IMG/VR virus record: IMGVR_UViG_3300025137_000098
Span: 1-38,812 of that record
Source of the DNA: a virus
Reading direction: 5' to 3' (one strand)
DNA length: 38,812 nt
Shown: piece by piece, positions 1,419 through 38,812 of the stretch
Position numbering within the stretch: the stretch's first letter is position 1
Layout of the letters: every line of letters begins with the position of its first letter
The notes under the pieces: generated by a model
Databases searched by the model: none
Told to the model about the DNA's origin: nothing
The model's input: the letters and a program-made list of their open reading frames with translations, nothing else
Made by a program: the position numbers and the translations under genes

Positions 1419-1434
1419 TGTTTTACGTGAAACG
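1419..1434. promoter_or_regulatory. parS-like palindrome, copy B
   Basis: The sequence TGTTTTACGTGAAACG differs at two positions from the chromosomal parS consensus TGTTTCACGTGAAACA bound by ParB. It fills the 18-base gap between two small genes exactly. A better match (copy A) lies 1.7 kb away, just upstream of terL. An operator for a phage regulator is the alternative reading. Confidence 0.5.
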
Positions 1435-1654: not shown

Positions 1655-3115
1655 CTAATAATAGGCCCGAATTTTAGTAGACGCCACCTTTTCCTCTACC
1701 TCGTCCGTGGGCAATTGAATAAAGTTGCCCTGTCGATAACGCATCAATGCCTGCGTCATGCTGTCCACCAAATCATCGTGCTCGCCATTTGGAAACGCAG
1801 CAACCTCCTCAATCATCTCATCCGCAAACAACTCGTCCGGGGCCCAAACCATGCCCGCCTCAAATAAAGGCGATACAGCATGTACACGAGATACCTTGTC
1901 GTTGCCGCGGCTCGGCGTGAAATTCACCACAGGGATGCCCGTGTTCCGTAACTCATGCGTCAAAGGCAAACCACTCGCCTTTGCCTCCACAATCACCGTG
2001 TCCGGCTCCCAGAAATGATACGCCTCAAATGCCGCCGCCTTCAATTCTGGGAAATCCCAACGCCCCTTCTTGCTGTCCAGCAATATCAAGTTCGGAGGAC
2101 CGCCCTCGTCCGGGTAAAATACACCCCACGTCGTGATAGCCGAGAAATCCGCTGTCTCACGCTTTGAAAACGCCGTGTCGTAACTTTGGATCACATACTG
2201 TAACTGAGGGACCGTACCTCCCTCCCACTTGCGCCACCACTCGCGGGCAATAATCGCATTGTCATCACCCGTTGGATTCTGCTGATACTGCGCATTCCAC
2301 TTGCTCGCAGGTATTGATGCGCGGACCGCGGACAAATCTTCAAAACTCCAGTACTCCGGCCAACACGGGGTTTCGTCGTCAAACAATGCCGGTAACTCAA
2401 CCACCTCCCACTGATCCGCCAAAGGGTCCTTCGCCATCGAACGAAGCAACTGACCCGTCATGTCCTTCTCACTCCACCGAGTTTGGACCAACACAATCGA
2501 TCCACCCGGCTGTAAACGCTGACGAGGGCCGCCCGTGTACCACTCCCAAGCATCATCAAATCCAGAATTGGACATCGCCGTCTGCTCAGAATGAGGATCG
2601 TCAATAATGATTAAATCACCGCCGCGGCCCGCCAAATTCGAACCAACACCTACCGCGTAATACATTCCACCCTTGTTCGTGTCCCACCGACCACTCGCCT
2701 TGCTGTCAACAGCTAACTCTACTCCCGGGAAAATCTCCCGGTAACGCTCATCCTCTAACAAATTCTTGGTCTTACGACCAAAGTTTACAGCCAACTCCGT
2801 CGTGTGCGTCGCCTGAATGATCTTCATCGACGGATCACGGCCCATCATCCATGCCGGAAACAGGTAACTCGCGAACTCCGACTTCGTATGACGTGGAGCC
2901 ATGTTGATTATCAGACGTTTCAACTCGCCTCGCGCAACACGGTCAAGCTTTTCCGCAATGATCTTGTGGTGCCGCCCTGCAATGAACTCGGGCCACACCT
3001 CACGGACAAAAGTTAAAAAGTTTTTTTGGCACGCCTCGTTCTTCTCCAATTGCGCAAGACGGAGTTGGAGCTTGAGTTCCTTTTCGTGGACCACGGGGTT
3101 CGGGGAAGCATCCAT
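1655..3115 (-). CDS. terL: Terminase large subunit (DNA-packaging ATPase/nuclease)
   Basis: This 486-residue protein drives DNA into the prohead and cuts the concatemer. The ATPase domain has a terminase-type Walker A, MAPRHTKSE (residues 72-80), and a Walker B ending in IDDPH (171-175). A motor or coupling segment VLVQTRW lies near 208-214. The RNase H-like nuclease domain shows its acidic residues in SYDTAFS (D313), VIVEAKASG (E377) and HDDLVDS (D447/D448). The length is normal for the family. The first ATG, MDASPNPV, is used. The gene stands alone behind an AT-rich leader carrying a parS-like palindrome, and is separated from terS by a GC-rich block of about 4.7 kb. The family call is secure; pac or cos packaging type cannot be told. 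Confidence 0.96.
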   Translation of the reverse strand: MDASPNPVVHEKELKLQLRLAQLEKNEACQKNFLTFVREVWPEFIAGRHHKIIAEKLDRVARGELKRLIINMAPRHTKSEFASYLFPAWMMGRDPSMKIIQATHTTELAVNFGRKTKNLLEDERYREIFPGVELAVDSKASGRWDTNKGGMYYAVGVGSNLAGRGGDLIIIDDPHSEQTAMSNSGFDDAWEWYTGGPRQRLQPGGSIVLVQTRWSEKDMTGQLLRSMAKDPLADQWEVVELPALFDDETPCWPEYWSFEDLSAVRASIPASKWNAQYQQNPTGDDNAIIAREWWRKWEGGTVPQLQYVIQSYDTAFSKRETADFSAITTWGVFYPDEGGPPNLILLDSKKGRWDFPELKAAAFEAYHFWEPDTVIVEAKASGLPLTHELRNTGIPVVNFTPSRGNDKVSRVHAVSPLFEAGMVWAPDELFADEMIEEVAAFPNGEHDDLVDSMTQALMRYRQGNFIQLPTDEVEEKVASTKIRAYY

Positions 3116-3133
3116 TTTGGGGACCCTAAAATT

Positions 3134-3149
3134 TGTTTCACGTGAAACG
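3134..3149. promoter_or_regulatory. parS-like palindrome, copy A, in the terL leader
   Basis: TGTTTCACGTGAAACG matches 15 of 16 positions of the ParB-binding parS consensus TGTTTCACGTGAAACA, including the perfect 14-base palindrome GTTTCACGTGAAAC. It lies 18 bases upstream of the terL start in an AT-rich leader. No parA or parB gene is visible, so the reader could be host ParB. It could instead be an operator or roadblock for terL transcription. Confidence 0.6.
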
Positions 3150-3353
3150 GTATGGGATATTTAGCATTAAAAAGACATTTTTTAAAGTCATATCAAATTT
3201 CTTGTAATTGTTCGTGCGAAACATGGCCCTTGCCCTCGGTCCCCCGGGCGTGGGCCGTCGATCTGGGCGCGCCGCCAGCTCCGATCGATCATGGCGATCT
3301 GACCCGATATCCCGGGGACCCGGGCGATCTGGGCCGCCTGACGGGCCGTGTCG

Positions 3354-3398
3354 CATGCGCCGGGCGCATGGTGCCAATGCTGCACGTGCGAACGTGCA
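3354..3398. repeat. Pair of perfect inverted repeats
   Basis: Two hairpins lie side by side: CATGCGCC/GGCGCATG with a 1-base centre (3354-3370), and TGCACGT/ACGTGCA with a 4-base centre (3381-3398). Neither is followed by a T-tract, so they are unlikely to be intrinsic terminators. A protein-binding or cruciform role is possible. Confidence 0.6.
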
Positions 3399-3533
3399 AC
3401 CCGTTGATATCAGACAATACGCGTTGTCCTGGGTTAGCACGTGCAGCATGGATATCGACGGCGGCGCACAACGGATCTCGGGCCGGGCCATGCGCTGGAC
3501 GCCCAGCTCCCCGGGAGCTCGAGGGCCGGGAGC

Positions 3534-3559
3534 TCGATGTCGGGCCTCGATGTCGGGCC
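3534..3559. repeat. Tandem 13-base repeat
   Basis: TCGATGTCGGGCC occurs twice head to tail (3534-3546 and 3547-3559) inside the non-coding spacer upstream of terL. A related GCTCGATGTCGG occurs again near 3654. Confidence 0.7.
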
Positions 3560-3620
3560 GTCAGGTCGAAATGGTGGGCACCGGCCCGGTACTGGGCCGA
3601 CGAGCTCGACGTGAGGGCGC

Positions 3621-3650
3621 AAAAAAACGGCCCGGCAATGGGCCGGGCCG
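3621..3650 (-). terminator. Intrinsic terminator ending the GC-rich block
   Basis: Read on the minus strand, a perfect 9-base stem CGGCCCGGC / GCCGGGCCG with a short loop is followed by a run of seven T. It lies 26 bases after the stop of the last gene of the block (3676). Confidence 0.85.
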
Positions 3651-3675
3651 CGTGCTCGATGTCGGTGGTGTCGGG

Positions 3676-3918
3676 TCAGTACAGGTCGAGTTCATCCCGG
3701 TCGGCGGCGGCATGCCACCGGCGCTCGGCACGCCACCGGGAATCATCGGGTTCGGGTTCGGGCTCGGCCAGCACAGCGGCGAGCCGCGTCATGCCTTTGG
3801 CATATGCCGCGTCGGCTTCGTCGCTCCGACCGGCTTGCGACATGAGCGCCATGAACTGGAATTGGAACAGCGCGCCCTCCAGCATCTCGCGGGTTGTGTC
3901 GTCCACGGTCCGGCTCAT
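3676..3918 (-). CDS. 80-residue acidic protein, last gene of the GC-rich block
   Basis: I do not recognise this protein. It starts MSRTVDDTTREMLEGALFQF and is predicted mostly helical, with a PEPEPDDS linker near residue 52 and an acidic end (ADRDELDLY). Its ATG overlaps the stop of the preceding gene in an ATGA arrangement at 3915-3918, so the two are translationally coupled and probably act together. A strong terminator follows. GC-rich codons match the rest of the block and differ from terL. No transmembrane segment or catalytic motif is seen. Confidence 0.7.
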   Translation of the reverse strand: MSRTVDDTTREMLEGALFQFQFMALMSQAGRSDEADAAYAKGMTRLAAVLAEPEPEPDDSRWRAERRWHAAADRDELDLY

Positions 3919-4253
3919 GTTCGCACCGTGGCGATGCAGTCGACCTCGACTGATAGGTCAGAGAGCGCGCTCTCGACGGTGCTCTCGACCATGCCCTCGA
4001 GCTGGTCCGCGCCGGGGCCGTCAAAGTGACTTTCGACCATGTTCTCGACCATGCGCTGGAACATGGTCACCATTGGGTGGTCCACAGTTGCTGGGCTCGC
4101 ATTTAACTTGGCCTGCATTGTTTCGCGGTCGCGCCGGGCGGTGACGAGCTCGAGGGTGAGCGCGTCACGCTCGCTCCTGAGCTGGTCGATCTGGTGCTCG
4201 ATCTGCGCGGCGGTCGATAGTCCCAGTCCTTGGATGTTCATTGCTTCGATCAT
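3915..4253 (-). CDS. 112-residue coiled-coil protein of the GC-rich block
   Basis: This protein is not recognised. The start is set at the ATG at 4253 because GGAGAAATCAG precedes it; an upstream extension to 4307 lacks a site and would enter the promoter region. Residues near 20-60 (QIDQLRSERDALTLELVTARRDRE) look like a coiled coil, followed by an acidic segment with repeated VES (MVESHFDG, MVESTVESA). It is coupled by ATGA to the next gene, suggesting a two-component unit. The promoter at 4298-4326 belongs to the four-copy family of this block. Confidence 0.7.
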   Translation of the reverse strand: MIEAMNIQGLGLSTAAQIEHQIDQLRSERDALTLELVTARRDRETMQAKLNASPATVDHPMVTMFQRMVENMVESHFDGPGADQLEGMVESTVESALSDLSVEVDCIATVRT

Positions 4254-4297
4254 GATCTGATTTCTCCATTGTGTCCCGGCGGGAATGCCGGACCTAT

Positions 4298-4326
4298 GTT
4301 GTCGCACGTTGTCGCATGTAGCGCAA
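4298..4326 (-). promoter_or_regulatory. Block promoter 4 (TTGCGC-17-GACAAC)
   Basis: On the minus strand, TTGCGC and GACAAC are separated by 17 bases containing ATGCGACAACGTGC. This aligns closely with the promoter at 4747-4775, including the repeated TGCGA steps. It lies about 45 bases upstream of the 4253 start. Confidence 0.6.
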
Positions 4327-4331
4327 CGTTA

Positions 4332-4703
4332 TTAGCTGTGCGTGTAACCGTCGGGCTCGATGCCCAACCACATGCCGCACCATTGCACCATGTAGCAGTC
4401 GACCCCTATCGCCGGGCGAACGGTCCGCCGGAATTGAAGATAGGTCGGCGCGGCTGGGCCGCTGTCCAGCGGTCGGTCGTAGATAGACTTGAACGCTTCG
4501 ATTTGTGCGCGGGTCGGTCGCATTGCGCCACGCGGTGCAATCAACGCACGGCGGGCGGTCTCGGCGGCGGCGCGGTCCATCGTTGTGCCGGTGATCTTAG
4601 TGCCTCGCGCCGCGACGTAATAAGCGGCGGGCAAATTGGGTGTCGTGTACTGCTCGATGGTCAGCTCGGCGGGGGGGAAGGTCTCGTCGGTATATCGTTG
4701 CAT
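4332..4703 (-). CDS. 123-residue protein of the GC-rich block, unknown function
   Basis: This protein is not recognised. The ATG at 4703 (MQRYTDETFPPAELTIEQYT) is chosen because AGGAGCG sits about 9 bases before it. The longer frame would run through the promoter. The middle is Arg/Ala-rich and helical (AAAETARRALIAPRG), with RPTRAQIEAFKSIYDRPLD near residue 65. The C-terminus is hydrophobic and Cys/Trp-containing (GVDCYMVQWCGMWLG). It is a single-gene unit with its own upstream promoter; the next promoter starts within a few bases of its stop. Confidence 0.7.
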   Translation of the reverse strand: MQRYTDETFPPAELTIEQYTTPNLPAAYYVAARGTKITGTTMDRAAAETARRALIAPRGAMRPTRAQIEAFKSIYDRPLDSGPAAPTYLQFRRTVRPAIGVDCYMVQWCGMWLGIEPDGYTHS

Positions 4704-4746
4704 TGTTTTCGCTCCTGTTATCGGGCCGGGAATGGTCCAGGCGCAT

Positions 4747-4775
4747 GTTATCGCACGAGATCGCATAGGGTGCAA
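4747..4775 (-). promoter_or_regulatory. Block promoter 3 (TTGCAC-17-GATAAC)
   Basis: On the minus strand, TTGCAC is followed after 17 bases (CCTATGCGATCTCGTGC) by GATAACAT. It shares the TGCGA-n-GTGCGA arrangement with promoter 4. It lies about 45 bases upstream of the start at 4703. Confidence 0.6.
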
Positions 4776-4940
4776 GGCGCAATGGGGCGTGGCGTCAGAG
4801 CTCGAGGGGCGGGCGCTGGGCCGGGGCGCATGGTCTAACGTCTAGACGGGCCGAAACGCGGCTCACGGCTCACGGTACGCGGACCTCGAGGCGGTTTGGT
4901 ACGTCCGCGGTCGACGGGCCGGGGCCAGTTTAACTGTCGC

Positions 4941-4975
4941 GAACGCAAAGCGGCCCGGGATAATCCCCGGGCCGC
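4941..4975 (-). terminator. Intrinsic terminator after the DUF932 gene
   Basis: A 10-base perfect stem GCGGCCCGGG / CCCGGGCCGC (4950-4975) has a 6-base loop and is followed on the minus strand by TTTGCGTT. It lies 24 bases after the DUF932 stop. The T-run is short, so termination may be partial. Confidence 0.6.
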
Positions 4976-4999
4976 TCGCTCGTGTGGTGTGGTGTCGGA

Positions 5000-6127
5000 T
5001 TAGACGGTGAGCAATTCCAGCGCTTTCCGGTGCGCCTTGGCCTTAAGCTTTCCGCCGGTGCCGTCGCCAAACAAGTTCGAGGCGATGCCGTGCGCCGCGC
5101 CTCTGTTCTTCGCCGGGCGTTGGTCGGCTAACCAAGTGACGGTGTTAAACGCTCCCCACAATGTGCCGCGTGCGCTTTCCATATCGTGCCCGGGGTTGAT
5201 AGTCGCGACCGGGTCGGCGGTGGCGTCGGTCGGCAACGGTGTCGCGACACCGCGTGCGATCTGATCCAGCCGCTCCGATACTCGGGCCGTGACCTCGAGG
5301 TCGTCCGCCTTTCCGACCGGCACAAACTCCTGACCGCGATGAAACGCCATCGCCCGGCGCACGCCAATAGACCAGCGGACCTTTCCGCCTTCCTCGGCGG
5401 TTTCTTTCCCGCCGATAACATCGCGGAAAAACTCGAGCGCTTCGGCGTCGGATAGGGCGCGGGTCGCCATACGCTGCGCCATATCGGCAAACCCGGCAAA
5501 CCGCTCGGCGTTCAAACCAAGTGCGGTTTCAACGGCGGCGGGCTCGAACATCACGCGGTGATCGTGTCGCACGATATCCGCGCCGGTCTCGGCCAGCGCG
5601 GCGGTTAGCGTGTTGTTACAAACAACGCGGGTATTAACGCTGGCAAAGGTGTTTGCGTCGCGTCCGGTATGACTGAGCGAAAAGAGCGGGCGCGATGTGA
5701 TCCGATCACCACCCGGCAAGGTGGCGTCGGCGTCCGCTTCAAGCTGTAACCATATTTTGGAACCGCCGAACAACGCCCCGGCGGTCACGATGTCATAGCC
5801 GTGCGCCCGGCGGATATCGTCGGCGAGCTCGAGGGCGGCGGCGTTCTGTACCGGTTGCCACTGGCCAGCAATATACGGGCCGGTGACTGCGCCGGTATCA
5901 GTCCGGGCGATGTGATAGCTGTCGGCGATGGGGGAACCGTCGGGTTTGCAATTGGGCGAGACCTCCACTGCGTAATTCAAACCGGCGGCGGTTGCCCAGT
6001 CTTCTATTGACGCCCCAACTGCGACGGTCTGCGGGTTAGTCTCGGCGGCGTGCCACGGTACGGGGTCGCCAATGCGAAAGGCCATTGCGACGGTTCCATC
6101 TGCTGCGATGTCAAGTTCATGTGCCAT
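5000..6127 (-). CDS. DUF932 (phage/plasmid-like) protein
   Basis: The 375-residue protein matches the DUF932 / TIGR03299 phage-and-plasmid family by its features: a substrate-independent N-terminus with W-x-x-L-like spacing, GQWQPVQNAAALELADDI near residue 87, LFGGSKIWLQLEAD, a VNTRVVCNNTLTAAL segment with paired N near residue 170, and a C-terminal NTVTWLADQRPAKNRGAAHGIASNLFGDG. Members are widespread on plasmids and phages with no established biochemical role; some lie near replication or anti-restriction genes. Here it is a single-gene unit with its own block promoter at 6172-6200 and a terminator after it. Length is typical. ATG start with TAGGATC upstream. Confidence 0.85.
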   Translation of the reverse strand: MAHELDIAADGTVAMAFRIGDPVPWHAAETNPQTVAVGASIEDWATAAGLNYAVEVSPNCKPDGSPIADSYHIARTDTGAVTGPYIAGQWQPVQNAAALELADDIRRAHGYDIVTAGALFGGSKIWLQLEADADATLPGGDRITSRPLFSLSHTGRDANTFASVNTRVVCNNTLTAALAETGADIVRHDHRVMFEPAAVETALGLNAERFAGFADMAQRMATRALSDAEALEFFRDVIGGKETAEEGGKVRWSIGVRRAMAFHRGQEFVPVGKADDLEVTARVSERLDQIARGVATPLPTDATADPVATINPGHDMESARGTLWGAFNTVTWLADQRPAKNRGAAHGIASNLFGDGTGGKLKAKAHRKALELLTV

Positions 6128-6171
6128 TGTTTTTGATCCTATGTGTTGCGCGGCAATATCGCCGCAGATGG

Positions 6172-6200
6172 TTTATCCCATTATATCGCACGGGGCGCAA
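6172..6200 (-). promoter_or_regulatory. Block promoter 2 (TTGCGC-17-GATAAA)
   Basis: On the minus strand, TTGCGC and GATAAA are separated by 17 bases that include GTGCGATATAAT. An alternative -10 is that internal TATAAT, but its spacing to TTGCGC would be too short. It lies 45 bases upstream of the DUF932 start. Confidence 0.6.
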
Positions 6201-6212
6201 GCGCTTATTTTA

Positions 6213-6923
6213 TCAGGCGGCAAGCCCCGTGTCCCCGGCGACGTGATGGCGCAACCTCGAACCGCGACGCAACCCGGCGGCAAACCGTGTGACGTGTTCC
6301 GCCTCGGTCTCGGCGTCGGGCGATAACTCGGCAAGCCTGCGCCAATGGATCGCGCAATTCCCGCACGCCGCATAACATCCGCCGGGGTCGTCGGGATCAC
6401 CCGCTCGGCGTTTGTCGGGGCCGTGCGCCGTAAACGCAACGGCAAACCGGCGATCTTCCCGGGCGCAAAGCGGTCCTTTCGCGTCGCCGCAATTTCCGCA
6501 ATCGGTCTTATCGTCATATTCGGCGGGGCACCGCATAAAGGTGAGCCCGTCCTGCTTGAACGCTCGACGCTCTTTCCAATGACCGTCCGGTACTACTGTT
6601 ACGACGGGGACGCCGCGCTGAAAGTATTTCACCGCGTCGGCGATTGTGTCGGCGCTGAAATTGAACACGGTGCGACCGGGGCCGTTCTTGTGTTTCCATC
6701 CGTCCGGGGAAAAATGGGAATACAGCCAAGACCACCCGCCTTTCGGCACGGCGTCGCCAAGCGCCTTCTCATAGTCGCGGTCGATCTCGACGGTGCCGGT
6801 GTCTTTTGGTTTCATGCCGCAAGTGTCGGGGCATGTTCCGAACATCTCTTTCGGCGCGGCACGGTATGTGACAGCACAACCCCGGGTCTTACTCGAGCGG
6901 CTAGTTTCAACGGTTAAAAGCAT
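6213..6923 (-). CDS. Cys-rich protein (236 residues), possibly DUF7227-like
   Basis: Its N-terminus, MLLTVETSRSSKTRGCAVTY, followed by GTCPDTCGMK, resembles Cys-rich phage and plasmid proteins (I associate it with DUF7227; not certain). Ten or so Cys occur in clusters: C-P-D-T-C near 30, then CPAEYDDKTDCGNCG near 130, PLCARED, and GGCYAACGNCAIH near 180. They could bind zinc or an iron-sulphur cluster. The stretch VFNFSADTIADAVKYFQRGVPVVTVV is likely a beta-alpha unit. The ATG at 6923 has AAGGAAAC upstream. It is the first gene of the GC-rich block, with its own promoter 33 bases upstream. No function is assigned. Confidence 0.75.
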   Translation of the reverse strand: MLLTVETSRSSKTRGCAVTYRAAPKEMFGTCPDTCGMKPKDTGTVEIDRDYEKALGDAVPKGGWSWLYSHFSPDGWKHKNGPGRTVFNFSADTIADAVKYFQRGVPVVTVVPDGHWKERRAFKQDGLTFMRCPAEYDDKTDCGNCGDAKGPLCAREDRRFAVAFTAHGPDKRRAGDPDDPGGCYAACGNCAIHWRRLAELSPDAETEAEHVTRFAAGLRRGSRLRHHVAGDTGLAA

Positions 6924-6955
6924 GATCTAGTTTCCTTGTGTGGTGTGGGACTTGT

Positions 6956-6984
6956 CTTATACCAGCACGACACAAGCGGCGCAA
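6956..6984 (-). promoter_or_regulatory. Block promoter 1 (TTGCGC-17-TATAAG)
   Basis: On the minus strand, TTGCGC, 17 bases, then TATAAG. It is the closest to sigma-70 consensus of the four block promoters and lies directly downstream of the terminator at 6988-7012, so it restarts transcription for the block. Confidence 0.65.
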
Positions 6985-6987
6985 CAT

Positions 6988-7012
6988 AAAAAAAACCCGG
7001 CACGGGGCCGGG
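6988..7012 (-). terminator. Intrinsic terminator upstream of the GC-rich block
   Basis: On the minus strand, the stem CCCGGC / GCCGGG with a 5-base loop is followed by eight T (6988-6995). It closes the terS transcript before block promoter 1. Confidence 0.8.
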
Positions 7013-7038
7013 CTAGTTTTCACACAGGGAAAGCAATT

Positions 7039-7140
7039 CTATCTGCGGCGGCGACGCACCGGGCGGGTGTTAGCGCGGCGCATTAAATCATTGTAGTCAG
7101 AGCCGTAAAGCAAGCGGCCAATCCAAGCGAATAGAAACAT
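7039..7140 (-). CDS. 33-residue peptide with hydrophobic N-terminus and Arg tail
   Basis: Hand translation gives MFLFAWIGRLLYGSDYNDLM, then a tail ending in five Arg. Its ATG overlaps the stop of the preceding gene as TGATG, the same coupling style used across the genome, and the terminator lies 27 bases downstream. These placements support a real small gene; the short hydrophobic end plus basic tail could associate with membrane or nucleic acid. Length makes the call tentative. Confidence 0.5.
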   Translation of the reverse strand: MFLFAWIGRLLYGSDYNDLMRRANTRPVRRRRR

Positions 7141-7491: not shown

Positions 7492-7974
7492 TTATGCGAC
7501 TTTATCGTCCCCTGTTTCGAACATCAAGCGGAAAATGTTTGCCCAGTTCACCGGTTCTGTTTCGTGTGCCACCGGGTTAACCTTGTCGATCCCCTCCATA
7601 CGCAGATCAATCGCATGTCTCCCGGCGTAAAGATAAACCTCGGCGGGCTTCGTTACCCCACGTTGGCGAAGGATCAGTATCCAAACCGGTGCGTGTTGGT
7701 GCTTCGTTAGAAAGGAAATCTGATGGGGGCTCAACTCAACGGCGTGGTTTGCCGTGACCTTAAGTTCCACCATGCTGAACCTTCCGGACGGCTCACAGAG
7801 CAACAGGTCCGGCACCCCGGGCATCGCCCAACTCTCAATCCTCGTCAGGGTCAACTTCTTCGAGTACCTCTTCATCGCCTCCTTCACTTGGCGATAAAAG
7901 CCGGATTCGCGCTTTATCACGGTTCGAGGCATTAGGTGGGGACTCTTCGGAAGCTTGTATTGTGATGGGGGCAT
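7492..7974 (-). CDS. PD-(D/E)XK nuclease-like protein overlapping terS
   Basis: The 160-residue frame has MPGVPDLLLCEPSGRFSMVE followed by LK near residues 51-72: the PD...(D/E)-x-K core (D56, E70, K72) of restriction-endonuclease-like and VRR-NUC-type phage nucleases. An upstream Glu (E24 in KRESGFYRQV) may be the fourth active-site residue. It could resolve branched DNA or recombination intermediates before packaging, an inference from its place beside terS. The first ATG is at 7974, a second (MPRTVIKRE) at 7932; neither has a clear ribosome site. Either way the gene overlaps the 3' end of terS by about 100-140 bases in another frame. Confidence 0.8.
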   Translation of the reverse strand: MPPSQYKLPKSPHLMPRTVIKRESGFYRQVKEAMKRYSKKLTLTRIESWAMPGVPDLLLCEPSGRFSMVELKVTANHAVELSPHQISFLTKHQHAPVWILILRQRGVTKPAEVYLYAGRHAIDLRMEGIDKVNPVAHETEPVNWANIFRLMFETGDDKVA

Positions 7975-8452
7975 AGCTGTTTTTGATATCCTCTAGTGCT
8001 TTCATCACTTCGTCTTTCGACATGCTGTCGATAGTGCCGTGGCGGACTTCGGATCGTGACACGTAAATGTCCCCCTGAGCCTGCCCACGTCGATATTCAG
8101 CCTGAACGGCTGCGGAGTAGGCTCCGTTGGTCAACGCGGCGTCACGGATCGTTTGAAGGTCTTTAAGGTGCCTCTGGTAGTTGACCCCATACTTGTTGTC
8201 CAACTCCTCCCGATATTCTCGGATGGCACGACAAACGTGAGGAGATATATGCGGGTTCGTCAGTTCATACGCTCGGGTATGCGCACTCCCTGCGGGGTAG
8301 CCCGCGTTCACCGCCGCCTCTCTCATCGTGATCTGGCCGTCTCTCGAAACGAGTTCCTTCACGAACAACTCTTGTTTCCGAGACAGGGGCCGGTCGATCA
8401 GGTTTTTTGAAGCCGCTTTAGGTATTGTCCGTTTTTTCAGGGTCTTTGCCAC
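7835..8452 (-). CDS. terS: Terminase small subunit
   Basis: This 205-residue protein recognises phage DNA for packaging and recruits the large terminase. Residues 23-90 read as the classic family pattern: LSRKQELFVKELVSRDGQ, then a helix-turn-helix (ITMREAAVNAGYPAGSAHTRA), then ISPHVCRAIREYREEL. The C-terminal part is acidic (EEVLEEVDPDED), as in subunits that bind the large terminase. The start is GTG at 8452 with AAGGAAAACAC upstream. It begins a minus-strand transcript (terS, nuclease, two small genes) and is split from terL by the GC-rich block, which is unusual since the two are normally adjacent. Confidence 0.92.
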   Translation of the reverse strand: MAKTLKKRTIPKAASKNLIDRPLSRKQELFVKELVSRDGQITMREAAVNAGYPAGSAHTRAYELTNPHISPHVCRAIREYREELDNKYGVNYQRHLKDLQTIRDAALTNGAYSAAVQAEYRRGQAQGDIYVSRSEVRHGTIDSMSKDEVMKALEDIKNSYAPITIQASEESPPNASNRDKARIRLLSPSEGGDEEVLEEVDPDED

Positions 8453-8873: not shown

Positions 8874-9122
8874 TCAGACAAGCCTTTCCCTTTGGTTGAC
8901 GCGCTTGGCGTATAGGATGAGTTGCATGAGCTCCGGTCCGCTTACGTTTGTGCTGGATATGCAGAGCACGTCGTTCTCGTCCTTCCGTAGGACGGCGAAG
9001 ATGATGCTGCTTCCCTGCCCTTTGGTGGCGACCAGTTCACCGTCGTCGGATGTGGTGATGTGGATTTTGTGGTCGAGCACGTCGGACCGTTTGTCTGTGG
9101 CTGTGGCTGTGGCTGTGTCCAT
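8874..9122 (-). CDS. 82-residue hypothetical protein
   Basis: This protein is not recognised. It begins MDTATATATDKRSDVLDHKI; the TAT repeat comes from a tandem GTGGCT at DNA level. The middle alternates polar and hydrophobic residues like a small beta sheet (HKIHITTSDDGELVATKGQ, SIIFAVLRK, VLCISST), and the end is a helix (GPELMQLILYAKRVNQRE). AAAAGGA lies 9 bases before the ATG. It is downstream of the Cys peptidase-like gene with a 60-base gap and is probably co-transcribed. Confidence 0.7.
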   Translation of the reverse strand: MDTATATATDKRSDVLDHKIHITTSDDGELVATKGQGSSIIFAVLRKDENDVLCISSTNVSGPELMQLILYAKRVNQRERLV

Positions 9123-9181
9123 TGGGTTGTCCTTTTGTGTTGAAACGATCTTGAAGAGCCGTGATCGGTGGTTAGTGGTCC

Positions 9182-9916
9182 TTACTTACTTATCGTTGGG
9201 TGGTGCTCTTTGGCGAACTCCACCATGTCCTGCATTCTCTTCCACACGTCCTCCATGTCGTAGCAGTAATGCTCGTCGCACAGCGGATGTTCAAGTTCGG
9301 TGGCAAGCCCCTCAAGTTCGTCGGACATTGTCACCCAGTAGTCGATGTCGTCCTTTTCACAGGTGATGCCGAACTCCGGGTACTGCCGGATCATTTTATT
9401 GACCCGGTAGTAGTACGGGTTGGACTTCGACTTAGGCTTCGACACATCGATGTCAGGCTTGGTCACGTTGTCCGAGGTCAGTTCGTAGACCTCCGCGACC
9501 CGCGCCCGGCGCTTCACCCGCTTGTCTTTGATCGACACGATCTCTCGTATCCGACCGCAGGTATAACGACGACCGCTGACAAGCTGCCAATGCCAGCCTG
9601 CCACGATCAGGAAGACGCGGCCCGTGGTCCGATCTTCTTTCGACATCTTCAGCCATCCGGCTAGGGTTGGGCCGGTCGAACGATTTAATCGAACGCCGGG
9701 CTTCTGCCACCGGTAAGCCTTAATGTTGCAGGCCCGGAGACCGTCGAGCACTTGGTTAGTGCTTGTCCCCGTGATCTTAGGTCGACCGCTCTGCTTCCGG
9801 ACCAGCCTTGCAGCCTCTCCGGTCGTCAGGTCGGTCAGTGCCGATATTACGGACGGTCCGCAATACCGGTTTTTGTCTTTGCCATCAGTGATGGCCTTCA
9901 ATTTAAGTTTCGACAT
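9182..9916 (-). CDS. Papain/C39-like cysteine peptidase-like phage protein
   Basis: The 244-residue protein (start ATG 9916, AGGGGATC upstream) opens MSKLKLKAITDGKDKNRYCG. C19 in RYCGPSVISALTDLTTGEAA sits at the head of a helix, as the nucleophile of papain or C39 peptidases does. H109 in VFLIVAGWHWQLVSGRRYTC is placed on a following beta strand, as the catalytic His is. A Lys/Arg-rich middle (DKRVKRRARVAEVYEL) and a charged helical C-terminus follow. In phages such proteins could process virion proteins or host targets; the substrate is unknown and activity is inferred. An in-frame upstream start is less likely. It follows an AT-rich region with a DnaA box. Confidence 0.65.
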   Translation of the reverse strand: MSKLKLKAITDGKDKNRYCGPSVISALTDLTTGEAARLVRKQSGRPKITGTSTNQVLDGLRACNIKAYRWQKPGVRLNRSTGPTLAGWLKMSKEDRTTGRVFLIVAGWHWQLVSGRRYTCGRIREIVSIKDKRVKRRARVAEVYELTSDNVTKPDIDVSKPKSKSNPYYYRVNKMIRQYPEFGITCEKDDIDYWVTMSDELEGLATELEHPLCDEHYCYDMEDVWKRMQDMVEFAKEHHPTISK

Positions 9917-19994: not shown

Positions 19995-20033
19995 TCTCAT
20001 TCTCCTTCTTCGTTAAACCAGCTTGTAGGCCGG

Positions 20034-20063
20034 TTGACGTTGCCGTTTATATGCTGATATAAT
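20034..20063 (+). promoter_or_regulatory. Promoter for the HNH/SNF2 operon (TTGACG-18-TATAAT)
   Basis: TTGACG (20034-20039) and a perfect TATAAT (20058-20063) with 18-base spacing, 33 bases before the ATG at 20096. It overlaps the leftward promoter, so the two compete. Confidence 0.75.
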
Positions 20064-20074
20064 CGGATAGTCAA
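20046..20074 (-). promoter_or_regulatory. Promoter for the replication operon (TTGACT-17-TATAAA)
   Basis: On the minus strand TTGACT (20069-20074), 17 bases, TATAAA (20046-20051): near-consensus sigma-70. It fires towards 19994 and overlaps the rightward promoter. Confidence 0.75.
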
Positions 20075-20095
20075 CAGCCGAATGGGGAAAATAAA

Positions 20096-20698
20096 ATGCG
20101 GAAGGTTTACCAGAAGAACAAATTTGTTTTCGGGGTTGGAGTAAACGACGCGGATTATGTGGTGAAGCCTATTTCACCGGGCGGCAAGCGAGAGAGGTGT
20201 CCTTTTTATACGGCGTGGAAAAACATGCTAGGGCGGGCCTACGACACGAAACACCACGCATTTTTCCCCACCTACATTGGCGTCACCGTATGCGAGGAAT
20301 GGCACTCGTTTATGGCTTTCAGGGCGTGGATGATGGGGCAAGACTGGGAGGGGAAGCATTTGGACAAGGACATACGCCAACCCGGCAACAAACATTATTG
20401 CCCGCAAACCTGTATGTTCGTGACTCAGCAAATCAACAACCTCTTACTAGACTGTGCCGCCACAAGAGGCGACTTACCCATTGGTGTTGGCCGTTGCTAC
20501 GGTCGTTATAAGGCCCGCGTAAGCGAAAACAACAAGTCAAAACACCTCGGCCTATTCGACACACCGGAAGAAGCGCACCTCGCGTGGCGAAAGGCCAAGG
20601 TCGCCATCATCCGTCGCGCCGCGATGACCGGCGACATCTACCTGTACGCAGGCCTGATGCCGCGCGCCAAGCTTATCGAACAAGGGGAAGCAGCATGA
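20096..20698 (+). CDS. HNH-like endonuclease with AP2-like DNA-binding domain
   Basis: This 200-residue protein has an N-terminal half with FYTAWKNMLGRAYDTKHHAF, VCEEWHSFMAF, HLDKDIRQPGNKHYCPQTC, and FVTQQINNLL: the arrangement of HNH-type phage endonucleases (L-D-K-D, then G-N-K-x-Y, then C-x-F-V/N). Residues 128-172 (IGVGRCYGRYKARVSENNKS, then HLGLFDTPEEAHLAWRKAK) form an AP2-type domain that binds DNA and is often fused to such nucleases, including free-standing homing endonucleases. It may be a selfish nuclease or may have been recruited to work with the coupled SNF2 helicase. ATG at 20096 with GGGGA upstream and a strong promoter. Confidence 0.82.
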   Translation: MRKVYQKNKFVFGVGVNDADYVVKPISPGGKRERCPFYTAWKNMLGRAYDTKHHAFFPTYIGVTVCEEWHSFMAFRAWMMGQDWEGKHLDKDIRQPGNKHYCPQTCMFVTQQINNLLLDCAATRGDLPIGVGRCYGRYKARVSENNKSKHLGLFDTPEEAHLAWRKAKVAIIRRAAMTGDIYLYAGLMPRAKLIEQGEAA

Positions 20699-22143
20699 CC
20701 GGCTACGTCTTCGGCACGGAGCCCTACGATCACCAACGCACCGCGTTCGAAGATTCGTGGGCCGCGGAATATTATGCTTTGTTGATGGAGATGGGCACAG
20801 GCAAGTCTAAGGTCGCGATAGATACCGTCGCCGCGCTCTACGAAGCGGGGGAGATCAATGCCGCCCTGATCGTCGCGCCGAAGGGCGTTTATGCAAACTG
20901 GGTGAAGGGCGAGTTACCTATCCACATGCCCAGTCGGATTGACCGGCTCGTTGTCCAGTGGATACCAGCAAAAACCAAAAAGTTTGAGGAAGAGGTGACT
21001 GGTCTTCTGGATATTGAGCCCAACCACCTTCGCATCTTTGTTATGAATGTGGAAGCGCTATCCTCGCCCCGTGGCGCGAGGGCCGCGTACGAGTTTCTCA
21101 AGCGCTACCCCAACAGTCTGATGGCTGTGGACGAGTCCACGACGATCAAGAACCGCTCTGCCAAGCGCACGAAGAACGTGGTGAAACTGGGGGAATACGC
21201 AAAATATCGGCGCATCCTGACGGGTTCCCCGGTTACGAAGAGTCCGCTCGATCTCTATGCGCAGTGCTCGTTCCTGTCGGACGACGCGCTTAATTTCAAG
21301 AGCTACTTCGCTTTCCAGAACAGGTACGCGGTCATTCAGCGGCGGACGATGGGGCACAAGTCCTTTCAGGAGGTGACGGGTTATCGGCGTCTGGACGAGC
21401 TATCCGAAAAGCTGGAGCGGTTCAGCAACCGGGTTTTGAAGTCCGATTGTCTGGACCTGCCTGACAAGGTGTATATCCGGCGGGATGTTCCGCTGACGCA
21501 GGAACAGAAAGTGCTGTACGCGCAGATGAAGAAGCTGGCGCTTGCGATGTTCGAGAACGGCGAACTGGCGACGACGGCCAGCGTGCTGACGCAGATCATG
21601 CGGCTCCAGCAGATATGCTGCGGGTTTTTAACGCCCGACGATGGCGAGGTGCAGGAGATACCGCATGGTCGTCTGGATGCGCTGCTCGAAATTGCGGAGG
21701 AGGCGCAGGGTAAGGCGATCATTTGGGCGACATACACGCATGACATACACGCGGTCCGTGATGCGTTGGCCGCGAAGTACGGTCCTGAGACCGTGGCCAC
21801 GTATTACGGTGCGACGCCACAGGACGAGCGGCAGGAGATTGTCAATGCTTTTCAGGCCATGGACAGTCCGCTTCGGTTTTTTGTGGGCCAGCCCCGCACC
21901 GGTGGTTACGGCATCACGCTAACTGCCGCCAGCACGGTGGTTTATTACTCGAACAGCTATGATCTGGAAATCCGGCTTCAGTCAGAGGATCGGGCGCATC
22001 GTATTGGCCAGAAGAAGTCTGTCACTTACGTCGATCTGGTCTCGCCGAAGACGATTGATGAGAAGATACTGCTTGCTCTGAAGGACAAGATCAATCTTGC
22101 CGGTCAGGTCTTAGGTGAGAAGACGGCTAACTGGATCATCTGA
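20695..22143 (+). CDS. SNF2-type superfamily 2 helicase/translocase
   Basis: The 482-residue protein (ATG at 20695, GGGGAAG upstream) has SF2 motifs: Walker A LMEMGTGKSKVA (K37), motif II VDESTTIK (DEST at 146-149 in place of DEAH), motif III LTGSPV (175-180), and in the second lobe a motif VI-type SEDRAHRIGQKKSV. That last motif, with its QKKSV ending, is characteristic of SNF2/Rad54-like enzymes, which move on duplex DNA without full strand separation. Similar genes are frequent in marine phages. Possible roles: replication restart, recombination, or clearing host proteins. Coupled by ATGA to the HNH/AP2 gene. Its 3' end overlaps the convergent structural gene by 8 bases. Confidence 0.92.
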   Translation: MTGYVFGTEPYDHQRTAFEDSWAAEYYALLMEMGTGKSKVAIDTVAALYEAGEINAALIVAPKGVYANWVKGELPIHMPSRIDRLVVQWIPAKTKKFEEEVTGLLDIEPNHLRIFVMNVEALSSPRGARAAYEFLKRYPNSLMAVDESTTIKNRSAKRTKNVVKLGEYAKYRRILTGSPVTKSPLDLYAQCSFLSDDALNFKSYFAFQNRYAVIQRRTMGHKSFQEVTGYRRLDELSEKLERFSNRVLKSDCLDLPDKVYIRRDVPLTQEQKVLYAQMKKLALAMFENGELATTASVLTQIMRLQQICCGFLTPDDGEVQEIPHGRLDALLEIAEEAQGKAIIWATYTHDIHAVRDALAAKYGPETVATYYGATPQDERQEIVNAFQAMDSPLRFFVGQPRTGGYGITLTAASTVVYYSNSYDLEIRLQSEDRAHRIGQKKSVTYVDLVSPKTIDEKILLALKDKINLAGQVLGEKTANWII

Positions 22144-23221
22144 TCTGGAGCATACTTCCGATACCGTGGTGCACTGCGCCGCCGTTCCGCATGGGCCGCG
22201 CGAACGGCTGGAAGTTGGGCTGCTGGAAGAAGGGTGTTTGAAGCGTGACGGGTTGTCGGATCGGCGGGTTGACCAAAGGCCGCGTGGTTGGAGCCAAGTT
22301 AAACCCCGAAGTGCCAACATCTGTGGTGTTTATGGGCACTATGGGAAAGGCCGTGCCCGCCGTTTGAGCGTCGCCACCGACGTTGAGGTCTTGTTCTTGT
22401 ATGGTTGTGCCCAGAGAAAGGATGCCGTACGGGTTTGTTACGTCCAAGGCGGGATCGCCGCCACCTTGGTCCTCAAAGCCACCAAGGCTCGCGGTGGTGG
22501 AAGGGCCACCGGTGGAAGGTCCACCAAGGGATACGTTGCCAACAGCGTCTGCAATGCTCCCGAAGGATACGTTGCTATTTCCGTGTGAAAAGCCTCCCGG
22601 CGTCGTATCGACGCCAATGGCATTTGCAACAGCTTCTCCTAGGGGGCCCATACCGGGAGCACTCGTGGAGATGCCTTCCGGGCCAACACTGACAGTTGTA
22701 TCGACGCCGACGCCTTTGGCAAGACCTTCGACCGCCACAGCAGCGAGCGCTGCTACGGGGCCACCAATCATCGCCGCCGCAATGGCGGGCACACTGAAAT
22801 CAAGGCTCGGCACCCCTCTTCCGAACTCGTTGTGGGTTCGGCCTATGTCTATTGGGCTGATAGCGTTGAAAAGGCTTCTCCCAAAGCTCGGGGCGATTTG
22901 CGCTTCGTAGGCGTCCTGCTCGCCCTGCGCGGCGGCCATCGCCGCCGCTTCGTTAGCTTGATTTGTTTCGTTGTTGGGGTCGTTTGGGTTATTGGGGTCA
23001 TCGGGAGTTGGCGCGGAGAAATCACCGTAGCTTACGTTCGCGTCGTTGGGACCCGGATACCCCATATCGGGGCTACCAGCGGGGCCACCACCACCGCCGC
23101 CACCACCACCAGAACCCAGAAGCATGCGCTTACGAGCCCAATAATCGTCGGCGTCCACACCAAATCCGGCATATGTGTCGTTAAAACCGTCTGAGAAGGG
23201 ACTTTTACGCTCGTATTTCAT
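22136..23221 (-). CDS. Gly-rich virion-like protein coupled to the acyltransferase gene
   Basis: This 361-residue, low-complexity protein is not a known enzyme. It opens MKYERKSPFSDGFNDTYAGF, has a nine-Gly run near residue 40, Asn-Pro repeats (DDPNNPNDPNNETNQ) and a hydrophobic segment (PAIAAAMIGGPVAALAAVAV) near residue 145. Two GVDTT repeats flank GPEGISTSAPGMGPLG. The C-terminus MRNGGAVHHGIGSMLQIR carries the NGGAV tag and GIGSM, matching GIGSLM at the end of the 1466-residue protein. Its ATG overlaps the acyltransferase stop (ATGA), so it is translated together with it; it may be a substrate or cofactor of that enzyme. Last gene of the virion run, meeting the SNF2 gene tail to tail. Confidence 0.75.
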   Translation of the reverse strand: MKYERKSPFSDGFNDTYAGFGVDADDYWARKRMLLGSGGGGGGGGGPAGSPDMGYPGPNDANVSYGDFSAPTPDDPNNPNDPNNETNQANEAAAMAAAQGEQDAYEAQIAPSFGRSLFNAISPIDIGRTHNEFGRGVPSLDFSVPAIAAAMIGGPVAALAAVAVEGLAKGVGVDTTVSVGPEGISTSAPGMGPLGEAVANAIGVDTTPGGFSHGNSNVSFGSIADAVGNVSLGGPSTGGPSTTASLGGFEDQGGGDPALDVTNPYGILSLGTTIQEQDLNVGGDAQTAGTAFPIVPINTTDVGTSGFNLAPTTRPLVNPPIRQPVTLQTPFFQQPNFQPFARPMRNGGAVHHGIGSMLQIR

Positions 23222-23649
23222 GTGGTTTTCTCCGAGCGGTCGGCGTTAGGGGCTCTTACAAAATATAACCGGTCGTTTTCAATTCGCTTCATAAACGCCC
23301 CGTCTTTTTTGTACACGCCAAGGTAACGCTCCGTTAAATCTTTTTGAACCAGACGGCCTATCTTCAACGTGTTGTTGTATGGGGCGACGATATCCATAAG
23401 GTAAAGGTCCCCTGACTCGTGGTCCGTGGACCAGTCTCCGGCCTGTATTTCCCTTGTTTTAAGAAGGTAACCCTTTGCGGCTTCGGGCGTTAGGAAAGCA
23501 TGGCTGTAAAATCCAATTGGTTCTTCGTTCTGATAGAAAACCTTTAGCCTCCCCGCTGCGATGGCGGGAAGTATTAGACGCTCAAGGTCGTGCACAAACC
23601 AATTCTTGTAGTTGGTCTGAAACATCAGCTTAAGAACGTCTTCGATCAC
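23218..23649 (-). CDS. HlyC-type toxin-activating lysine acyltransferase
   Basis: The 143-residue protein fits the RTX-C (HlyC/ApxC) family, which moves a fatty acid from acyl-ACP to Lys side chains of pro-toxins. H20 in NWFVHDLERLILPAI matches catalytic His23 of HlyC. D86 in YLMDIVAPY matches Asp92 in HlyC's FIDWIAPFG; spacing (66 versus 69) agrees. VFYQNEEPIGFYSHAFL and EIQAGDWSTDHESGD match the conserved middle (PxxYCSWA; EDWxSGD). The length is slightly short versus about 170. GTG start at 23649 overlaps the previous stop (GTGA) and the end overlaps the next ATG. No RTX toxin with GGxGxDxxx repeats is in view, so the target is probably a neighbouring virion protein (inferred). Confidence 0.85.
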   Translation of the reverse strand: MIEDVLKLMFQTNYKNWFVHDLERLILPAIAAGRLKVFYQNEEPIGFYSHAFLTPEAAKGYLLKTREIQAGDWSTDHESGDLYLMDIVAPYNNTLKIGRLVQKDLTERYLGVYKKDGAFMKRIENDRLYFVRAPNADRSEKTT

Positions 23650-30023: not shown

Positions 30024-31133
30024 TTAGACCATTCCTTGCATCGGCGGCTGCGGCGTGTTCGCCAGCGACATTACTCCTCCAGACATATCACCCTGTACCG
30101 GAGTTGTCATCTGTTCCGCGGCCAGCGGGCCAATCCCACCGTCTACCGGCATGCCGCCGGGAGCCGTGGGCTCCGGTGCGGAGGCCATCATCATGACGGG
30201 CTGCAACAGCGCTAAAACGGATTCCGGAGTCTGGGCCGCGTCTTCTGGACCGACCAACTGAGCAAGTTCCTCGCGACGGGCCTCCACAGGGGCCTGATCG
30301 CCACGGGTCATGTTCATCATCTCGCCGTAGTTTTCTGCCGTCTCGGGGTCACCAAAACCCTGAGCGCCCTGCTCGATCATAGCACCCATTTCGGGGGTTC
30401 CCGAAGCGGCCATAGCCTCCATGACAACGCCCTGCTCGGACGGCGGAAGGGCTGCTGCGGCGGCAGGCATTTCCTGCGCCATCGAAGCCATGTCCTGCGG
30501 CATCACCATTCCCGGGCCACCGTCTTGGCGACGGATTACGACGCCGCCGTTGCGATAGCGGGGTACCATGTTTCTGGGGTCCATTTCCATATCACCGCGA
30601 GGCGGGAAGGTGTTCTGCCCCGGGTCCGGCTGCATGTCCCGGAAATACTCCGGGCTCATCTGGACCGGCGGCGCAAGCTCTTGAGACGGCGGAGGAGGGA
30701 AACCACCAAGCATGCCCGCTCCTTCTTCTTCGCCCGTGGTCATCGGTCCAAGCATAGAAGGCGGCATGGGGACGTAGCCGCTCTGCCCGCGCGGCCCTGC
30801 CGGGGACACGGTGTTTGGCCCGGTGACGCCCTCTCGCATCATCATCTGCTGCGCCGCGTTAATTTCGGCAATTTCTTCCTGAGAAGGCGCACGCCCATAC
30901 TTGTCAAAGAAGGCTGTAATTGCAGCTTGCAGTGCGGGATTGCCGCCCTGTTGCATATAAACGGGTCCGCCGCCGCCGTACTGCATGGGGGCAACGCCAC
31001 CACCACCGCCGTACTGCATGGGCTGAACTCCACCACCATACTGCATGGGTTGAACTCCACCACCGTACTGCATGGGTTGAACTCCACCACCGTACTGGAA
31101 CATCTGTCGATTCATTACGCCGCGATTCATCAT
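30024..31133 (-). CDS. Repeat-bearing virion-like protein (QYGGGVQPM repeats)
   Basis: The N-terminus MMNRGVMNRQMFQYGGG is followed by about four copies of QYGGGVQPM or close variants, then GGGGGVAPMQYGGGG. Residues about 65-90 form a helix pair (AITAFFDKYGRAPSQEEIAE). The remainder is Met/Pro/Gly/Ala-rich and includes the RNGGVVIRRQDGG tag near residue 195. The protein ends LANTPQPPMQGMV. Low complexity suggests a flexible virion or scaffolding component rather than an enzyme. The ATG overlaps the preceding stop (ATGA). Confidence 0.72.
   Translation of the reverse strand: MMNRGVMNRQMFQYGGGVQPMQYGGGVQPMQYGGGVQPMQYGGGGGVAPMQYGGGGPVYMQQGGNPALQAAITAFFDKYGRAPSQEEIAEINAAQQMMMREGVTGPNTVSPAGPRGQSGYVPMPPSMLGPMTTGEEEGAGMLGGFPPPPSQELAPPVQMSPEYFRDMQPDPGQNTFPPRGDMEMDPRNMVPRYRNGGVVIRRQDGGPGMVMPQDMASMAQEMPAAAAALPPSEQGVVMEAMAASGTPEMGAMIEQGAQGFGDPETAENYGEMMNMTRGDQAPVEARREELAQLVGPEDAAQTPESVLALLQPVMMMASAPEPTAPGGMPVDGGIGPLAAEQMTTPVQGDMSGGVMSLANTPQPPMQGMV
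30970..31099. repeat. 27-base tandem repeat array inside a virion gene
   Basis: About four copies of a 27-base unit (containing CCACCGTACTGCATGGG on plus) encode QYGGGVQPM-like peptides. Copies near the gene start are almost identical; those further in are degenerate. The array can change copy number by slippage or recombination. Confidence 0.85.
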
Positions 31134-33977: not shown

Positions 33978-33984
33978 TTAACAC

Positions 33985-36098: not shown

Positions 36099-36118
36099 AA
36101 TTCAATCCAAATCGCGTG

Positions 36119-37345: not shown

Positions 37346-37357
37346 GCATGAAACCGA

Positions 37358-38728: not shown

Positions 38729-38737
38729 TGTCTTCTC

Positions 38738-38812
38738 CTATCTTGCTGTCGCTGGCGCTACACCGTCGCCGCCGAAGGGGTTTTCTGCAAAGGCCATGTA
38801 GACGTAAGTGTT
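38738..38812 (-). CDS. C-terminus of a tail-fibre or surface protein (5' part outside window)
   Basis: The last 24 residues before the stop are NTYVYMAFAENPFGGDGVAP, then ATAR. The YxYMAFAExPF...AxAR ending is one I know from the DUF7483-type C-terminal domains of marine phage tail-fibre or concanavalin-like surface proteins. The fibre tip would bind the host cell. The rest of the gene lies beyond the right edge. Confidence 0.8.
   Translation of the reverse strand, partial: NTYVYMAFAENPFGGDGVAPATAR

Follow-up and report, generated by a model that had tools for sequence, protein, structure and literature searches.

The window, a stretch of 38,812 nucleotides forming positions 1 to 38,812 of the viral record IMGVR_UViG_3300025137_000098, encodes its small and large terminase subunits (terS and terL) apart from one another, with a GC-rich block of genes between them (Table). 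A first-pass annotation had described this block as moron-like and had counted six genes inside it. Five open reading frames were recovered inside, encoding a DUF7227 protein, a DUF932 protein and the products of orfC, orfB and orfA, whilst a 33-aa ORF lies just outside. The reading frame of this ORF is conserved in seven aligned relatives, and the possibility that it is non-coding was ruled out by the in-frame alignment, which revealed a conserved peptide.

Table. Features of the terS-terL interval and its borders, in window coordinates.
Feature	Position	Strand	Evidence
terL, left neighbour	1655..3115	-	phrog_38, E 1.1e-105
parS-like site TGTTTCACGTGAAACG	3134..3149	.	15/16 to ParB consensus
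Conserved terminase-leader element CATGTTTYTSRCAAAYAWT, 2 mismatches here	3207..3225	-	55 distinct sequences in relatives
Non-coding, GC about 0.68, palindrome-rich, long hairpin 3377-3449	3226..3626	-	
Intrinsic terminator, closes block	3627..3651	-	strongest of scan, 10-pair stem followed by T7
orfA (80 aa), without a known domain, overlapping the orfB stop	3676..3918	-	codon position 3 bias vs L085, L086
orfB, about 112 aa, no known domain	3915..4253	-	codon position 3 bias
Leader of orfB: TGCGACAAC boxes in tandem at 4296-4316, hairpin at 4275-4292 and ribosome site	4254..4326	-	
orfC, 123 aa, no known domain	4332..4703	-	codon position 3 bias in relatives
Leader of orfC: RTGCGANNNC box in tandem at 4745-4766, hairpin at 4722-4738 and ribosome site	4704..4781	-	
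GC-rich hairpin 3' of DUF932, terminator-like, short T run	4949..4976	-	sequence
DUF932 / TIGR03299 protein, 375 aa	5000..6127	-	PF06067, E 3.6e-30
DUF932 leader: GTGCGATATAAT box 6180-6191, hairpin about 6150-6165	6128..6210	-	
DUF7227 (GP88 superfamily), Cys-rich, 236 aa, segment-permuted	6213..6923	-	PF23872, E 4.9e-27
Predicted DUF7227 promoter/leader, TTGCGC-17-TATAAG	6924..6985	-	sequence
Intrinsic terminator, closes terS operon, right block edge	6994..7014	-	second-best of scan
33-aa basic ORF, overlaps upstream gene's stop, last before block	7039..7140	-	translation MFLFAWIGRLLYGSDYNDLMRRANTRPVRRRRR
VRR-NUC-like gene, alongside terS	7492-7974		
terS, right neighbour	7835..8452	-	phrog_51, E 2.6e-9

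The three short reading frames are real genes, because substitutions relative to their relatives concentrate at codon position 3 (positions 1/2/3: orfA 6/4/19, orfB 5/3/15, orfC 5/1/20). Homologues of orfC are present in four relatives (L002, L083, L085 and L086) and that of orfB in the near-identical relative L002 is 82% identical; no full-length homologue of orfA was found in L002. The DUF932 protein scored above the curated cut-offs of both PF06067 (105.9 bits, cut-off 23) and TIGR03299 (137.4 bits, cut-off 110.7). It had been the only product recognised previously, but this no longer applies, as the DUF7227 protein matched PF23872 at 95.4 bits, above the curated cut-off of 27. PADLOC returned no defence or anti-defence match, PLSDB no match that would indicate a plasmid origin of DUF7227, and no paper on this family was found in the literature searched.

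Judged by its profile matches, the product is a permuted member of DUF7227. Profile positions 106-217 are matched first (E 4.8e-20) and positions 37-85 thereafter (E 1.6e-7), giving a segment order of A-C-B, in contrast to the A-B-C order of the GP88 (PF17338) and DUF7227 families, with which it shares Cys-rich motifs and whose matches lie above curated cut-offs. The same permutation was observed in phage DSL-LC04 and others. The window protein itself had no match at the GP88 cut-off, its link to GP88 running through gp33 of phage HTVC027P, which has a strong GP88 match and a weak DUF7227 match (E 0.0018). Predicted models of the DUF7227 (pLDDT 87) and DUF932 (pLDDT 75) proteins gave no Foldseek match in the PDB at E ≤0.001, a result that does not by itself demonstrate a new fold; VIA-align gave none at Z ≥8 (best 2.8 and 5.1, respectively), and a sequence search of solved structures yielded no convincing relative. 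A radical-SAM-like barrel was considered for GP88/DUF7227 from the Cys motifs, but nothing was found in its support.

Mean GC content of the block was 0.636 (range 0.602-0.686 in 500-bp windows, with all 13 windows above 0.60), and that of the 136 windows of 500 bp outside it was 0.552 (sd 0.036, maximum 0.634). The sharp compositional change proposed earlier at about 3.2 and 7.0 kb was borne out by GC steps at about 3.23 and 6.96 kb; the GC-rich stretch thus begins approximately 400 bp ahead of the block start previously placed at 3621 (3.23 vs 3.62 kb). An equally sharp change in codon use had also been claimed, but this was not observed, in that the synonymous codon choice of the five block genes fitted a model built from the remaining genes of the phage, with z of +0.7 to +2.7 vs -9.6 to +3.4 for core genes. 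The foreign composition and codon use expected of a moron is therefore represented by GC only, synonymous usage being native. The GC3 values of DUF932 (0.71) and DUF7227 (0.68) are within the core-gene range, much of their excess GC residing at codon positions 1 and 2, i.e. in amino-acid composition, and only orfA-C have high GC3 (0.76-0.80). The high GC content of the block stems mostly from the amino-acid make-up of its proteins, from GC-rich hairpins and from non-coding DNA, and recent foreign origin is not the cause.

The strong terminators said to bracket the block were recovered as the best two matches of the scan (minus strand, 3651-3627 and 7014-6994), and the stem of the latter is kept in relatives through compensatory changes. 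Rfam gave nothing at gathering score; weak isrO and SorX matches coincide with terminators and were set aside. The leaders preceding the island genes open with RTGCGANAAC boxes in tandem, spaced by about one helical turn, followed by a short, GC-rich, covarying hairpin and then a ribosome site. On the coding strand the box occurred 18 times in 22 intervals (0.19 per kb) vs 0.023 per kb outside, and five scrambled box cores gave 0-3 occurrences. In the leader hairpin alignment 96.4% of cells were paired, with covariation of 0.537 vs 0.218, a value reached by none of 500 shuffles, and sliding controls were far lower. The DUF7227 terminator-promoter stretch also recurs elsewhere in three relatives (L006, L083 and L085) at 75-77% identity. 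Consensus sigma-70 promoters were not enriched (3 found vs 4.7 expected), such that the earlier proposal of own promoters stands in altered form, as own leaders of another kind. Each island gene or gene pair begins with its own leader, and terminators on either side set these units off from the packaging operons; the terminators together with the enriched, covarying leaders, as candidate promoters, supply the start and stop signals typical of morons. The boxes may be promoter or operator sites, which would let the island be expressed on a schedule of its own, probably early, and independently of the late packaging genes.

The closest TerL proteins were those of HTVC027P, 023Pt_psg01, DSL-LC04 and HTVC023P at 52-60% identity, the next matches being at most 45%. 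By homology of TerL and the packaging genes, and by its split terS-terL arrangement, the phage is HTVC023P-type. HTVC023P, HTVC027P and 023Pt_psg01 (PMC9599517) likewise have separated terminase genes with a GP88-superfamily gene inside and no integrase found; unlike the window phage, they are AT-rich and infect or are attributed to SAR11, no DUF932 match was found in them, and HTVC027P and 023Pt_psg01 have terS in inverted orientation. The order terS, DUF7227 (44% identity), DUF932 (27%), terL is shared with DSL-LC04 (OR003939), as are the permuted DUF7227 and a raised interval GC (0.60-0.70 vs about 0.53), although that phage is from fresh water and its 61.5 kb contain no parS core, whether exact or with one mismatch. 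The only relative found in bacterial genomes was a 9.3-kb contig of a Verrucomicrobiota MAG, which is probably a stray viral contig.

The terminase genes of each of the four complete relatives lie 3-5 kb apart, with small genes between them that include a GP88/DUF7227-superfamily member; such a gene was likewise found in the interval of 17 of the 22 relatives whose genes were mapped one by one. As far as gene content indicates, this gene is a near-constant member of the island, usually with a DUF932-type partner, whilst the small genes vary among close relatives. A block present with the same composition in all relatives had been named as the sign of a core region, and this is largely what was found, the slot being family-wide and raised GC recurring in DSL-LC04 and in DUF932-bearing relatives; in low-GC relatives the interval has lower GC than terL.

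That the block is a moron cluster gained by horizontal transfer from a GC-rich source and placed between the two terminase genes would agree with the GC step, the private terminators and leaders and the high turnover, as well as with 12 of 39 relative loci (many relatives being contig fragments, and some near-duplicates) in which terS-VRR and terL are just 28-79 bp apart. These compact loci were considered as empty sites, and this was ruled out, as a leader element and small genes, including a clear GP88 in L047, lie upstream of their terS; they are rearranged, and none of the relatives presents the block as absent from the same site with its flanks adjacent. Native codon usage and the family-wide recurrence of this slot with its gene superfamily also argue against such an acquisition, which we regard as improbable, and rule out a recent insertion from a foreign donor; the earlier suggestion of foreign genes inserted among late genes was accordingly abandoned. 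Furthermore, third-position divergence from L006 is equal for DUF932 (about 48%) and terL (about 47%), so that, in this comparison, DUF932 was inherited together with terL. Neither the window nor nine relatives yielded an integrase, and the classical prophage moron setting therefore does not apply. The island resembles lambdoid morons in having own start and stop signals and variable content among conserved genes, but differs from these in its native codon usage, family-wide slot, lack of an integrase and lack of a clean empty site among the loci compared.

Between the window and L002, divergence reached 3-30% at about 3.4-6.6 kb and was about 1.5% on both sides, with third-position change of 4% in terL, 12% in DUF7227, 18% in DUF932 and 16-19% in orfB and orfC. 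Of 100 ORF families, which include some spurious ORFs, 72 were singletons. The DUF7227 of another relative (L089) is 92% identical, yet is found after, and not before, its 74% identical DUF932. The repeated leader and terminator sequences may act as short homologies through which units are swapped between co-infecting relatives, as the few junctions available suggest, and such swapping would produce both the changes of position and the confinement of divergence to the block. Ordinary GC variation of amino-acid-biased genes, with the leaders as chance repeats, would be in keeping with windows of similar GC (0.60-0.634) at 30-33 kb and with native codon usage, but is highly implausible given that every block window exceeds 0.60, that boxes and hairpin are enriched, strand-specific and covarying, and that divergence is confined to the block.

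The block is thus probably an old resident accessory island between terS and terL in HTVC023P-type lytic podoviruses, with fast turnover of content. What survives of the original description is that of separate transcription units among packaging genes, with predicted leaders as start signals, terminators and fast exchange of content. The island proteins might, soon after infection begins, target the host or its defences. For this abundant family of marine phages, the foreign moron gives way to a testable picture of a permanent inter-terminase slot with a common private leader, which could serve as a signature for finding such genes and would define a regulon; GP88/DUF7227 and DUF932, which occupy it constantly, are proteins with a wide distribution. 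The permuted DUF7227 and the parS-like site, both by-products of this analysis, may matter more than the island itself.

The GC-rich end next to terL invites a further explanation, namely that packaging starts (pac or cos) or replication originates at 3116-3650, with the GC step as the mark of a genome end and not of an island. Six-bp palindromes are in excess here (22 observed vs 12.3 expected, z 2.8), where the remaining phage avoids them (163 vs 316 expected at 20000-38812, z -12.1), and the non-coding end folds strongly (z -3.4 and -3.8). The conserved terminase-leader element lies upstream of terL, or of terS in rearranged relatives, and so heads the terminase genes whichever comes first, and a GGGNCCC palindrome adjoins terL along with parS. 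However, this explanation would account for the last 0.5 kb only and not the genes, the inner sequence of the hairpin is swapped between close relatives, and the leader element looks like an activator site ahead of an AT-rich promoter as much as it looks like a packaging site; we consider it rather unlikely.

The parS-like site is located 19 bp upstream of terL, in a region bordered by the island. At the terL-proximal position, the consensus TGTTTCACGTGAAACA is matched at 15/16 positions in the window and at 16/16 in 35 of 58 distinct relatives, and the site is by this comparison a candidate parS centromere sequence. ParB_N and ParA-type (AAA_31) domains were not found in the phage. The consensus match is common to ParABS centromere sites, and the phage has a single site, as does HTVC027P; RedRock-type prophages, in contrast, encode a parABS system of their own, with parS loci made of direct repeats (PMC7157519). 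The literature searched yielded no paper on parS in phages that lack ParB. It is conceivable, though we stop short of calling it likely, that ParB-less lytic phages of this family, and those of an unrelated family with up to five sites, carry host-type parS by terL, onto which the host ParB clamp would load and be used by the phage, potentially in the organisation or partition of its DNA, in tagging that DNA for packaging, or in the control of terL. The all-or-none occurrence of parS at terL would be the first hint, in the literature searched, of ParB-less lytic phages using host segregation.

In this virus record of 38,812 bases, the interval between terS and terL is GC-rich, as the first-pass annotation had claimed (mean GC of 0.636 in block windows vs 0.552 outside), and is encoded on the same strand as terS, the VRR-NUC-like gene and terL. 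A GC step is present, but the block, previously bounded at 3621-7012, starts near 3.23 kb. The terminators attributed to it are the top-scoring pair in the 10 kb scanned. Five ORFs lie inside rather than the six genes proposed. Of these, orfA, orfB and orfC are real genes, since differences between relatives fall mostly at third codon positions. Foreign codon use was not borne out: the five genes scored z +0.7 to +2.7 under a codon-usage model built from the remaining phage genes, in which core genes spread from z -9.6 to +3.4, and DUF932 and DUF7227 have normal GC3, their GC excess deriving largely from codon positions 1 and 2. Across the window, six-base palindromes occur at about half the expected frequency (163 vs 316 expected in 20000-38812), the exception being the non-coding 3116-3650, where they are over-represented.

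Features of the terS-terL interval and of related loci (window positions unless a relative is named)
Feature	Position	Strand	Detail
terS	7835-8452	-	
VRR-NUC-like gene	7492-7974	-	
DUF7227 gene	6213-6923	-	
DUF932 gene	5000-6127	-	
orfC	4332-4703	-	
orfB	3915-4253	-	
orfA	3676-3918	-	
Conserved element CATGTTTYTSRCAAAYAWT	3207-3225	-	55 distinct sequences, always heading terminase genes
parS-like site	3134-3149		15/16 to consensus
terL	1655-3115	-	
Degenerate parS-like site	1419-1434		14/16
parS array, L143	2657-3444		
parS array, L170	10535-11462		
parS array, L179	240-961		
DUF7227-like stretch, L143	5984-6277		
HTVC027P interval gene gp33			GP88, E 2.5e-28
HTVC023P interval gene gp26			GP88, E 1e-39
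023Pt_psg01 interval gene			GP88, E 3e-34
DSL-LC04 interval gene			DUF7227, E 3.6e-34

The top TerL matches among deposited phages were HTVC027P, 023Pt_psg01, DSL-LC04 and HTVC023P (52-60% identity), followed by matches of 45% or less; HTVC023P-type phages are an abundant podovirus group infecting Pelagibacter (PMC9599517). Neither the window nor any of nine relatives yielded an integrase domain. The 9.3-kb contig that carries the relative L249 (TerL 84%) belongs to a Verrucomicrobiota MAG, but it is probably stray viral DNA rather than an indication of the host.

All four complete relatives carry 3.1-4.8 kb of small genes between terS and terL, each including a GP88/DUF7227-superfamily gene. 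DSL-LC04 resembles the window in placing DUF932 between DUF7227 and terL, and its interval has a GC of 0.60-0.70 vs about 0.53. Interval GC exceeds that of terL in IMG/VR relatives with DUF932, and lies below it in several low-GC IMG/VR phages. Within 22 mapped intervals, taken from a set that includes many fragments and some near-duplicate loci, and with ORFs called mechanically, DUF7227 was present in 17, DUF932 in 11, and two further families of 370-500 aa in five each; one of these two families matches DUF932 weakly.

In 12 of 39 relative loci (some near-duplicates) only 28-79 bp separate the VRR gene from terL, an arrangement that could be read as the empty site of an insertion. This reading was rejected: in these compact relatives a conserved 19-bp element that elsewhere precedes terL by about 100 bp is located ahead of terS instead. 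Beyond it are small genes, among them an unambiguous GP88 in L047 (E 7.8e-40); those of L066 and L037 include weaker GP88/DUF7227-superfamily members. The terS-VRR pair therefore sits on the island's other side, and the island is not missing.

The content of the island turns over rapidly. Relative to L002 (terL 98.5% identical at the DNA level), the flanks are about 1.5% divergent and the region of about 3.4-6.6 kb is 3-30% divergent, with third-position change of 4% in terL vs 12% in DUF7227, 18% in DUF932, 16% in orfB and 19% in orfC. In L089, a DUF7227 of 92% identity follows a DUF932 of 74% identity; stretches of terminator plus promoter reappear at different positions in relatives, and 72 of 100 mechanically called ORF families from the 22 intervals are singletons. 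Divergence from L002 of 16-28%, with a 406-base length difference, was also seen at 9001-9400, between terS and the 9182 gene.

Upstream of orfB, orfC and DUF932 lie leaders composed of RTGCGANAAC-type boxes, often in tandem at 10 bp spacing, then a hairpin and a ribosome site. Across the 22 intervals, 18 boxes were found on the coding strand and three on the opposite strand, scrambled cores occurred 0-3 times, and coding-strand density was eight times lower outside. In leaders aligned from different genes and phages, 96.4% of hairpin cells were paired, and the covariation score of 0.537 exceeded that of shuffles (0.218; 0/500 as high), which ignore relatedness, in agreement with a sliding control (0.03-0.12).

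This architecture, with its leaders and turnover, is shown by the data and upholds part of the earlier proposal of a moron inserted between terS and terL, namely its own start signals and terminators and changing content, but native codon usage and the family-wide interval argue against such an insertion. An accessory island whose gene units are exchanged is, we consider, quite probable. The island would be insulated and transcribed separately, and would keep a fixed position with respect to the terminase leader, whilst gene units would be swapped via common leader and terminator sequences; its timing, this exchange mechanism and any host-directed function are what we infer. A host-takeover or anti-defence role is conceivable, though somewhat doubtful.

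The window DUF7227 protein matched the Pfam profile at 106-217 and then 37-85 (E 4.8e-20, 1.6e-7), and that of DSL-LC04 in the order 6-37, 88-219, 37-94. Judged by these alignments, the protein is permuted, the N-terminal segment remaining in place and the next relocated to the C terminus. A profile built from canonical members gave the same permuted order in other members; the A-C-B order is common to the window, DSL-LC04 and many IMG/VR relatives, and the canonical order occurs in L006, L013, L059, L083 and L086.

No gene lies in the left border (3650 to 3116), a non-coding region where palindromes are in excess and both strands fold strongly; at its terL end come the conserved element, an AT-rich stretch and, 19 bp short of terL, a parS-like palindrome. 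The element may be a promoter-activator site or a packaging site. The distribution of parS, the ParB-bound bacterial segregation site, is all-or-none: among 58 distinct relatives, 35 matched at 16/16 and three at 15/16, and the best match in the remaining 20 was no better than 10/16. With shuffled palindromes, 1 of 299 matched, in a single region; an IMG/VR search with the consensus gave at least 120 hits vs one for the reversed palindrome. The site lies 19-133 bp upstream of terL across carriers (L003, L004, L006, L009, L029, L054, L110, L115 and others). Genomes of 49-58 kb bearing parS have one copy each, and no ParB_N or AAA_31 (ParA-type) domains were found in them. A second phage group (L143, L170 and L179), with TerL 27-28% identical to that of the window, carries three to five perfect sites near terL in the same loci. 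In L143 all five fall within the non-coding DNA that precedes terL, and a DUF7227-like stretch is present in this phage as well. The degenerate parS-like site of the window lies upstream of the 1135-1416 gene, and its 14-base core is exact at the corresponding place in L001 and L002.
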